NCBI GenBank assembly: GCA_019236735.1
Contig: JAFAIM010000044.1
Span: 1-64,000 of the forward strand
Source: Burkholderiaceae bacterium
GTDB lineage: Bacteria > Pseudomonadota > Gammaproteobacteria > Burkholderiales > Burkholderiaceae_F
DNA length: 64,000 bases
Reading direction: 5' to 3'
Below are positions 22,754 to 26,803 of the stretch, piece after piece. The translations under genes and the position numbers were made by a program. Every line of letters starts with the position of its first letter. Within the stretch, counting starts at the first letter, position 1. The notes under the pieces were generated by a model, which saw only the letters and a list, made by a program, of their open reading frames with translations, was not told the origin of the DNA and ran no database searches.

Positions 22754-25135
22754 CTAGCCCTGCCCCTTTCCCGAAGCCGGGGAGGAGGAGGTGCCGGTGT
22801 TGACTGGGCTCGCCGCGGCGGAGGTCGATCCGACGGCATAGGCCGCCTGCGCCTCGAGCACCACCAGCGCGGTCATATTGACGATGCGGCGCACGGTCGA
22901 AGACGGCGTGAGCACGTGCGCCGGTCGTGCGCACCCGAGCAAAATCGGACCGATCGCGACGTTGTTGCCCGAGATCGTCTTGAGCAGGTTGTACGCGATG
23001 TTGGCGGCGTCCAGTCCGGGACAGATCAGCAGGTTGGCATCGCCGACCAACGTCGAAAACGGCATCAAGGACTGGCGGATCGTAGCGTCGACCGCACAGT
23101 CCGCGTGCATCTCGCCGTCGACCGGAAACCAGGCGTCGCCGGCGCGGATCAGTGCGAGCGCCTCACGCATCTTGACCGCGCTGGGCGCGTCGCTGGTGCC
23201 GAAGTTCGAATGCGAGATCAGCGCGGCGCGCGGCGATATCCCGAGTCGCTGCAGCTGTTCGGCCGCCATCATCGTGATTTCGGCAATCTCCTCAGCGGTC
23301 GGATCCAGGTTCACATGGGTGTCGGCCAGCGCGATCAATCGATCCTGCAGGATCAGGATGTTCATCGCCGCGTACACGTTGGCGCCGGGGCGACGCCCGA
23401 GCACGAGATCGATGTATTGCAGGTGCAGAGAGGCGGTGCCGAAGGTGCCGCAGATCATTCCGTGGGCCTCTCCCTTGTACACCAGCATCGAGGCGATCAG
23501 CGTGTGCCGGCGCCGCATCTCCACGCGCGCATAGTGTTCGCTCACGCCGCGCCGCGCCGCCAGCCGGTGATAGGTCTGCCAGTAGTCGCGGTAGCGCTCG
23601 TCGTGCTCTGGATTGACGATGTCGAAGTCGGCGCCGGGGCGCATCCGCAGCGCGAAGCGCTCCAGGCGCCGTTCGATCACCGCAGTACGTCCGACCAGGA
23701 TCGGGTATGCCAGAGCCTCGTCGATCACAACCTGCGCCGCGCGCATCACCCGCTCCTCCTCGCCTTCCGCGAACACGACGCGCATCGCGCGGCCCGCTGC
23801 CCGGGCTTTCTTGGCGGCGGCGAAGATCGGCTTCATGAACGTGCCCGAGTGGTACACGAATTGCTGCAGTTGCTCGCGGTACGCGTTGCGGTCGGTGAGC
23901 GGACGACTGGCAACTCCGCTTTCCATCGCGGCCTCGGCCACTGCAGGCGCGATCCGCAGCATCAGTCGTGGATCAAACGGGCGGGGAATCAGGTAATCGG
24001 GTCCGAACGCCGGTTGCATTGCGCCATAGGCGCTTGCTGCCACGTCGCTGCCCTCCTCGCGCGCGAGTTGGGCGATCGCGTGCACGGCAGCGATCTCCAT
24101 TTTGCGTGTGATCGAGGTGGCCCCGACATCGAGCGCGCCGCGGAAGATGAACGGGAAGCACAGCACGTTGTTGACTTGATTCGGGTAGTCCGACCGGCCC
24201 GTGGCAATGACGGCGTCGTCGCGCACCGAGCGCACCTGCTCGGGCAGGATCTCGGGCGTCGGATTCGCCAGCGCGAGCACGAGCGGCCGCCGTGCCATGT
24301 TGGCGACGTGCTGCGGCGACAGCACGCCTCCCGCCGACAAGCCCAAGAAGATGTCGGCGCCGCCGATCACGTCGGAGAGGGTGCGAGCGGTGGTGCGTTG
24401 CGCGTAGCGCGCCTTCTCGGCGTCCATCAGAACGGTGCGCCCCTCGTACACGACGCCTTCGATGTCGGTCACGAAGATGTTCGCGCGCGGCAGTCCCAGT
24501 TCGACCAGAAGATCGAGGCAGGCCAACGCCGCAGCGCCCGCGCCGCTGCACACGAGCTTGACGGCGGTCAGCTCCTTGCCGACGACCTCCAGTCCGTTCA
24601 GCACGGCCGCTCCCACGATGATCGCGGTGCCATGCTGATCATCGTGAAACACGGGGATCTTCATGCGCTCGCGCAGGCGACGCTCGATCACGAAGCACTC
24701 GGGCGCCTTGATGTCCTCCAGGTTGATTCCGCCGAAACTCGGTTCCAGCGAGGCGATGATCTCGATCAGTCGATCGGGATCGCGCTCGGCAACTTCGAGA
24801 TCGAACACATCGATGCCTGCGAACTTCTTGAACAGGACCGCCTTGCCTTCCATCACCGGCTTGGCCGCGAGCGGGCCGATCGCGCCGAGTCCGAGCACAG
24901 CGGTGCCATTGGTGATGACCGCTACCAGGTTGCCGCGCGCCGTGTAGCGCGCCGCTTGCGACGGGTTCTCTGCAATCGCCTCGCAGGCGGCAGCCACACC
25001 AGGGGTATACGCAAGCGCGAGGTCACGCTGGTTGGTCAGTTGCTTGGTGGCAGTGACCGCGATCTTCCCGGGCCTGGGAAACTCGTGATAGTCCAGCGCA
25101 GCACGGCTCAGATCGGTTTTTTGTCGCTCTTCCAT
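22754..25135 (-). CDS. maeB: NADP-dependent malic enzyme (malic enzyme-phosphotransacetylase type)
   Basis: [40 protein letters not shown], and a C-terminal PTA-like domain. Confidence 0.95.
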
Positions 25136-25347
25136 AGAACCTTTTCGCGCCTCCTGGGAATTATCTGCTCAACAACGGCCAGCCTCGGTATGGTCCCCGG
25201 GTTGCGGTAAGGTGACTGCTGTCTTTGGGGTCGCTTGGAAACCCGGGTTCGGTAGCAAGTGCGGTGTTCCCGCCCCGTATCGATGGGAGATAAATGCGAC
25301 AAGACATGTTGTTCATGCACATTTTTCAGGTTTGTCCAGGGCGCCGC

Positions 25348-25377
25348 TTGACTTTGCATATAGCGTGAGAGTACACT
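25348..25377 (+). promoter_or_regulatory. Predicted sigma70 promoter for the hairpin RNA
   Basis: TTGACT (25348-25353), 18-bp spacer, TACACT (25372-25377). Confidence 0.55.
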
Positions 25378-25383
25378 CCCTCC

Positions 25384-25496
25384 AAGCTCTCTTAAGCCTG
25401 TCGCAAAGGCCTGAGCGCGTACATTCCCAACTCGGTGCCTCTCCTCCCTCCCTCCTCAACCGAATTTGGGTACGCTCAGGTGACAGGCTTTTTTTT
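25384..25496 (+). ncRNA. Candidate standalone small RNA with C-rich apical loop and intrinsic terminator
   Basis: Nested complementarity: AAGCCTGTC/GACAGGCTT, CCTGAGCG(CG)TAC/GTACGCTCAGG, CCCAA..CGGT/ACCG..TTGGG; apical GCCTCTCCTCCCTCCCTCCTCA; closing stem followed by T8. Confidence 0.6.
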
Positions 25497-25582
25497 GCCC
25501 GTGTAAAATGCGAAAGCGTGCGCTTACACTCAGCAGCCTGATCTGATACTACAGCTCGTCGCCTTTCTATTGCCTGTCGGAA

Positions 25583-26803
25583 GTGGCTGAGGCTCTAAGA
25601 CAGCAAGCAGCGCTTGCGCAGCGCTGCGAATCCATCGCTCCGTTTTTCGTCATGGAGCTGGTCAAAGAGGCCGAGCAGCTCGAGCGAAGCGGCCGCTCGA
25701 TCATGCACTTGAGCATCGGAGAGCCCGACTTCACCGCCCCGCCTGCGGTCGTGGGGGCTGCGCAGGCAGCGCTGCAGCAAGGACGCTCGCGCTATACGCC
25801 TGCGGTCGGCACGCTCGAGCTGCGGCGGGCGATCAGCGCTTTTTACCAGCAACGCTTCGGCGTGGACGTCGAACCCGAACGCATCGTCGTAACCGCAGGG
25901 GCTTCGGGTGCGCTGGTGCTGCTGCTGTCGGCGCTGCTCGACACCGGCGATGAGCTGCTGCTGCCGGATCCTTCCTATCCATGCAATCGGCACATCGCCT
26001 CGACGTTGGGCGCGCGCTGGCGGCTTCTCGCGTGCGGTCCGCACGATCGTTTCCAGTTGACCGCAGAGGCAGTGGAGGCAGCGTGGTCGGCGCGCACGCG
26101 CGGTGTGCTGATCGGTTCACCTTCGAATCCGACCGGAACGACGATCAACGCCGGCAATCTCGCCGCACTGTGCGACCGCGTGTTCGCGCGCGGCGGCTTC
26201 GTGCTGGTCGACGAGATCTACCAGGGGCTGACCTACGACCATGCGGCAAACACTGCGCTGTCACTCGATCCACGCATCGCCGTCATCAACAGCTTCTCGA
26301 AGTACTTCGGGATGACGGGCTGGCGGTTGGGATGGATCGTCGCGCCGCGCGAATGGATCGGCACGCTGGAGAGACTTTCGCAAAACCTGTACCTGTGCGC
26401 ACCGGCGATCGCGCAGCACGCCGCGCTCGCTTGTTTCGAGCCGGAGAGCCTCGCCGTGTGCGAGCAGCAGCGTGAGGAGTTGCGCCTGCGGCGCGACTAC
26501 CTCGTCCCGGCGCTGCGGGGGCTTGGATTCGGGATCCCGGTCGTACCCGATGGCGCCTTTTACATCTATGCCGACATTGGCGGCGTCGCGCACGATCTGG
26601 CGGATCGCAGAGGAGGGAGCACGCAATTCGCGCGCCGACTATTGAACGAGGCCGGCGTGTGCCTGGTGCCGGGCAAAGACTTTGGCGACTTCGAGTCAGA
26701 ACGCTACGTGCGGATTTCCTACGCCACCTCGATGCAGCATCTGCAAGAGGCGGTCCGGCGAACCGGCGCTTGGCTCGGTTCGTGCGGTCAGGCTAGGTGC
26801 TAG
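25583..26803 (+). CDS. Pyridoxal phosphate-dependent aminotransferase (class I/II)
   Basis: IMHLSIGEPDFTAPP, GSPSNPTGTTI, SFSKYFGMTGWRLGW. Confidence 0.95.
   Translation: MAEALRQQAALAQRCESIAPFFVMELVKEAEQLERSGRSIMHLSIGEPDFTAPPAVVGAAQAALQQGRSRYTPAVGTLELRRAISAFYQQRFGVDVEPERIVVTAGASGALVLLLSALLDTGDELLLPDPSYPCNRHIASTLGARWRLLACGPHDRFQLTAEAVEAAWSARTRGVLIGSPSNPTGTTINAGNLAALCDRVFARGGFVLVDEIYQGLTYDHAANTALSLDPRIAVINSFSKYFGMTGWRLGWIVAPREWIGTLERLSQNLYLCAPAIAQHAALACFEPESLAVCEQQREELRLRRDYLVPALRGLGFGIPVVPDGAFYIYADIGGVAHDLADRRGGSTQFARRLLNEAGVCLVPGKDFGDFESERYVRISYATSMQHLQEAVRRTGAWLGSCGQARC

Follow-up and report, generated by a model that had tools for sequence, protein, structure and literature searches.

CcsR1-4 present CCUCCUCCC in their loops, are induced by singlet oxygen and share their transcript with a DUF1127 gene, expressed from RpoH-type promoters. 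These singlet-oxygen-induced small RNAs (sRNAs) of Rhodobacter sphaeroides tune glutathione and pyruvate dehydrogenase and, as part of the photo-oxidative stress response, reduce central metabolism (PMC7074977). The alphaproteobacterial alpha-r14/NfeR1/cuckoo RNAs, which are under LsrB/NtrC control, consist of three hairpins with CCUCCUCCC on each; their exposed CUCC-repeat anti-Shine-Dalgarno (anti-SD) loops are conserved while the stems vary, and NfeR1 represses mRNAs at ribosome-binding sites through CCUCCUCCC (PMC10746234). In Burkholderiales, members of RF02278, the Betaproteobacteria toxic small RNA family (ncS27/bdhR of Burkholderia cenocepacia and S17 of Bordetella pertussis), are known or predicted repressors that act on mRNAs at ribosome-binding sites, and the predicted regulon is broad (PMC5688073, PMC11722255).

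CarH/LitR photoreceptors, with regulons described in Myxococcus (crt), Thermus and Pseudomonas (PplR/PmlR), are known for protein-coding targets, for example carotenoid, photolyase and folate genes. Pterin and folate genes are among these targets, and Pseudomonas folE belongs to the light-induced LitR genes (PMC9758184). In published CarH operators, 11-bp repeats nnnnTnnACAn stand in tandem and one of them contains the -35 element, so that RNA polymerase is blocked in the dark; the Wx9EH motif is crucial for CarH photoreceptor activity and ExHxxG is the B12-binding motif (PMC9304148). A search of the open-access literature found no sRNA under CarH/LitR control.

The window analysed here is a stretch of 64,000 nucleotides from a Burkholderiaceae bacterium. 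It contains an sRNA gene with the following features.

25348 to 25353, forward strand: -35 element TTGACT, with TTGAC invariant across 17 loci
25372 to 25377, forward strand: -10 element TACACT, located by promoter scan
25384 to 25496, forward strand: sRNA gene, comprising a pyrimidine-rich 5' tail of about 10 nt, rod, apical loop and terminator; start placed from the promoter
25394 to 25402, forward strand: 5' side of stem A, pairing with 25482-25490; 100% of cells paired in 17 sequences, two-sided changes in 4 pairs
25409 to 25417, forward strand: 5' side of stem B, pairing with 25473-25481; two-sided changes in 5 pairs
25426 to 25436, forward strand: upper stems CCCAA and UCGGU (25426-25430/25466-25470 and 25432-25436/25459-25463), from fold and covariation
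25437 to 25458, forward strand: apical loop GCCUCUCCUCCCUCCCUCCUCA, 22 nt, anti-SD-like; mean column conservation 0.88
25482 to 25496, forward strand: terminator 3' arm and U8 (25489-25496), from sequence and fold

The original prediction, a TTGACT-18-TACACT promoter followed by three nested complementary blocks forming a rod, an apical loop and a U8 run, was borne out in every element, and with a promoter and a terminator of its own the sRNA is an independent gene. The -35 and -10 elements are separated by 18 bp; two promoter-like sites were present compared to 0.2 expected from shuffled sequences. The predicted fold of the 113-nt RNA has a minimum free energy of -39.4 kcal/mol (z = -4.0), equalled by none of 200 shuffled sequences, and leaves loop GCCUCUCCUCCCUCCCUCCUCA entirely unpaired. 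The U-run is common to all relatives and is broken in G007. As proposed, the RNA is not 6S RNA: it is a single rod without a large central bubble and has no Rfam 6S match.

BLAST searches of 61 genomes revealed nine relatives, all from the same GTDB family. A covariance model derived from them detected the sRNA in 17 of 67 family genomes, with the window copy scoring 106 bits (E 2.7e-23). Each genome contains one copy, except for a weak second match in G003 (L028, G003:C32, 1501-1600, reverse strand, 31 bits), which lacks the C-rich loop and is possibly a paralogue or an unrelated terminator. In an order-wide sample of 399 genomes the sRNA was found in its own family only (5 of 13 sampled genomes) and none of the 386 genomes from other families had it; since only a few candidates were scored in each genome, remote or weak relatives could have escaped this search. 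When 84,980 species were scanned for the exact pattern, eleven proteobacterial MAG contigs came up, mostly from Burkholderiales and including peat-soil MAGs. An Actinomadura contig from the same scan was judged a chance match.

The stems covary in relatives. In an alignment of 17 distinct sequences fitted to the structure, 93% of cells were paired and two-sided compensatory changes were found in 13 of 27 pairs; the unfitted alignment A1 carries the same signal (9 pairs). The covariation score was 0.290, whereas shuffles gave 0.200 +/- 0.011 and slid partners no more than 0.11. Conservation of the C-rich loop (0.88 vs 0.55 for the remaining unpaired columns) was likewise observed; the loop is conserved though unpaired, with length changes among relatives coming in CUCC-like units. 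Stem cells contain 44 G-U/U-G combinations vs 6 C-A, and the forward strand is therefore the transcribed one. An RNA from the opposite strand, with a GGAGG loop that might act as a CsrA sponge, was ruled out by the G-U counts, the U-run and the promoter. We consider the sRNA almost certainly genuine.

No Rfam family matched in the window at gathering thresholds, so the family is new to Rfam, as anticipated. Under permissive thresholds the sole match at the sRNA locus was Enterococcus-1, at 22.5 bits against a cut-off of 71.4 and on the opposite strand; this identity was rejected as chance-level. What emerges is an sRNA family not described before, found in a single family of environmental Burkholderiales, whose stems clearly covary and whose loop is anti-SD-like.

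The likeness to cuckoo RNAs in the original prediction stands for the idea of the loop and fails for the architecture, since one rod with a single apical C-rich loop replaces three hairpins bearing CCUCCUCCC and there is no relation in Rfam. The sRNA shares with RF02278 its occurrence in Burkholderiales, a terminator at the end and an unpaired, CU-rich segment that is complementary to ribosome-binding sites. However, RF02278 RNAs are double hairpins of about 64 nt, multicopy in Burkholderia, whereas the fold and the covariation here both give one 103-nt rod, normally in single copy. The RF02278 covariance model produced no match at the sRNA locus even at E 10, and membership was rejected, with weak copies only elsewhere in the genome. 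Because RF02278 anti-SD RNAs such as ncS27/bdhR and S17 were already known, the betaproteobacterial context pointed out in the original prediction is not new by itself. The two sub-threshold RF02278-like matches in the window's genome (G000:C18:30116-30179, reverse strand, and G000:C75:8804-8859, forward strand) raise the possibility of a second anti-SD RNA family there.

Alignment of the regions upstream of the sRNA revealed a palindrome TTTGWCC-NN-GACAAA ending 1-3 nt ahead of TTGAC. In the form TTTGTC-N3-GACAAA it abuts the -35 element in 16/17 sRNA loci. The original prediction overlooked this CarH-type operator of the relatives, which supplies a candidate regulator and signal. Two related sites are present in the window.

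25331 to 25345, forward strand: CarH-type palindrome in degenerate form, TTTGTCCAGGGCGCC, at the aligned position of the operator of the other loci; its left half is perfect, the right one has decayed; score 2.8, p 0.06
25309 to 25323, forward strand: second, weak operator-like site, TTGTTCATGCACATT, lying 22 bp upstream of the main one; score 3.9 (p 0.04 against controls)

The TTGTTCATGCACATT copy is the top-scoring site of the window promoter, yet not significant. TTGTTCA is shared by G001, G075 and G076.

A family-wide search for the palindrome showed that in six genomes it immediately precedes a MerR-type gene. The product of this gene contains MerR_1, B12-binding_2 and B12-binding domains, its best structural relatives are the CarH structures 3whp and 5c8d (E 3e-25), and the class I photoreceptor motifs RxWERRY, Wx9EH and D/ExHxxG are present, with Wx9EH and ExHxxG intact. 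We refer to it as CarH/LitR-type (gene carH) and not as CarH proper because it falls below the NCBIfam CarH equivalog cut-off of 400 bits (117 bits for the G031 copy). The palindrome lies upstream of carH in 16 of 17 readable family carH loci, and the 3-nt spacing to TTGAC recurs at the carH sites of six genomes. The strict palindrome has a single occurrence in the window's genome, shortly upstream of the carH open frame: contig C23 (L117, G000:C23) contains the carH-type gene at 1462-2424, folE2 at 273-1070 on the opposite strand and, ahead of carH, the perfect palindrome ATTGTCGTAGACAAT. The divergent neighbour of carH is folE2 in most genomes. The palindrome had first been read as a LysR (T-N11-A) or a GntR site; both readings were dropped once the site turned up at carH.

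A weight matrix trained on carH promoters alone scored 14.3-25.6 at 16 of the 17 sRNA promoters, whereas none of 40,000 clean control windows scored above 13.1; G001, the nearest relative of the window, scored 15.0. The GACA half-site is offset from the -35 TTGAC by 11 bp in 11/17 promoters, by 10 bp in 5 and by 9 bp in 1; 11 bp is the repeat length of the operators published for CarH (PMC9304148). Only 9/17 sRNA promoters preserve the T of the TnnACA half-site described there. The B12-type MerR regulator and the autoregulatory site resemble known CarH/LitR regulons; the site itself, TTGTC-N3-GACAA, differs from the Pseudomonas class II operator TGTACA-N12-TGTACA.

Across 67 genomes, 16 contain both the RNA and carH, 1 the RNA only, 2 carH only and 48 neither; the association (Fisher 2e-12 by genome, 0.002 by genus) follows clades, with phylogeny not removed. 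In relatives, then, the same site stands at the sRNA and at carH in the same genomes, while the sRNA site of the window is degenerate. CarH quite probably controls the sRNA in most relatives. As the operator of the window is half-decayed, light control of the sRNA may have weakened or disappeared in that species, where we put CarH control at somewhat less than an even chance; the claim of a CarH link concerns the family, not the species of the window specifically.

The palindrome was also found ahead of gpx-folE2 in G003 and ahead of folE2 in G026. The latter locus (L095, G026:C270) has operator-like sites at 1437 and 1501, 64 bp apart; this genome is incomplete (61%), and searches of it yielded no carH and no copy of the RNA. 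A third strict palindrome of G012 (L105, G012:C259, about 1501) lies some 90 bp upstream of a gene identified by eye as encoding a TRAP-type solute-binding-protein-like product, possibly a further CarH target.

We propose, with a probability of roughly 0.6, that the RNA is a CarH-repressed, light-released, trans-acting anti-SD sRNA. The terminator-ended transcript would display a (CUCC)n loop on its long rod, and the loop would pair, presumably with the help of Hfq, with G-rich, GGAGG-type ribosome-binding sites and lower translation of a set of mRNAs. The sRNA promoter in most relatives would serve as the operator of the CarH/LitR-type light sensor, which depends on vitamin B12 (AdoCbl). In the dark, CarH bound to the palindrome and the -35 element would keep the sRNA off; upon illumination CarH would be released and the sRNA made alongside carH and folE2.

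The family comes with a concrete, testable candidate regulator and signal. A riboregulator in the CarH regulon would tie light directly to broad translational control in non-phototrophs and would parallel the Rhodobacter photo-oxidative sRNAs. By analogy with CcsR1-4 (PMC7074977), a part in photo-oxidative stress is suggested; compared to those RNAs, the sRNA described here has a gene to itself, equipped with a sigma70-like promoter and a CarH-type operator. Tentatively, and at slightly under even odds, this would be the first sRNA under direct control of a B12 photoreceptor, dampening metabolic-gene translation in photo-oxidative stress as an independently evolved counterpart of CcsR. The operator motif can be used to map CarH regulons in uncultured Burkholderiales.

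The alternative that survives best, unlikely in our view, keeps the anti-SD sRNA and assigns the palindrome to another regulator, or makes CarH an activator, the signal not being light. The only ties between CarH and the RNA are the shared site and the co-occurrence, a site centre near -46 would also fit an activator, and G003 carries both site and RNA, with no carH match in the search of family genomes. Against this, the site recurs in different genera at carH itself and has almost no other occurrence in the window's genome, and the 11-bp register with the -35 element, seen in 11 of the 17 sRNA promoters, is the layout published for repression by CarH (PMC9304148).

The proposed repression of mRNAs depends on the loop, which had been predicted to act as an anti-SD element. 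That part of the prediction which concerns the loop itself stood: it is complementary to GGAGG in several registers, and its unpaired CCUCC-type seed is conserved in relatives (0.88) and exposed in the folds. No target was found among long loop matches of the form GAGGAGGGA-N-ATG, which numbered 16 in 13 genomes with no recurrent gene, and the GAGGAGGGA-N-ATG match of the window's genome was not at a real start. The gene maeB was rejected as a cis-adjacent target, the duplex energy of the loop with its translation initiation region being no better than with shuffled loops. Hfq is encoded; ProQ was looked for and not found.

Rho, a cold-shock protein or Hfq could plausibly bind an unpaired pyrimidine tract of 22 nt, and the RNA could act as a sponge for such a protein and not on mRNA, a reading with which the lack of a conserved mRNA target in the long-match search agrees. 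We regard it as distinctly improbable, given that the betaproteobacterial RNAs known to contain unpaired CU-rich stretches act, or are predicted to act, on ribosome-binding sites (PMC5688073, PMC11722255). Anti-SD pairing is the likely mode of action of the loop.

The sRNA lies between two protein-coding genes.

22754 to 25135, reverse strand: maeB, malic enzyme-PTA fusion (Pfam malic, Malic_M, PTA_PTB); divergent neighbour at every sRNA locus
25583 to 26803, forward strand: class I/II aminotransferase (Pfam Aminotran_1_2); downstream of the sRNA in most loci, not adjacent in genus g4

Standing terminator-ended on the same strand about 90 nt upstream of the aminotransferase, the RNA could in principle be a cis element, either a leader or attenuator of that gene or a bidirectional terminator. 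This very improbable reading is largely refuted by synteny: all genus g4 loci keep the RNA, its promoter and maeB with no aminotransferase downstream, so the sRNA is not an aminotransferase leader, and G011 and G014 lack the RNA although maeB and the aminotransferase are paired there. A short coding gene (a 109-aa open frame, 25212-25541, overlaps the sRNA) or a chance hairpin can be practically dismissed, given the strong covariation and a frame that is not conserved among relatives, whose loop lengths differ by non-multiples of three and so break any frame. A GATAAT element conserved upstream of maeB in most relatives, located in the window at about 25160-25165 on the reverse strand, is probably the maeB -10 element.
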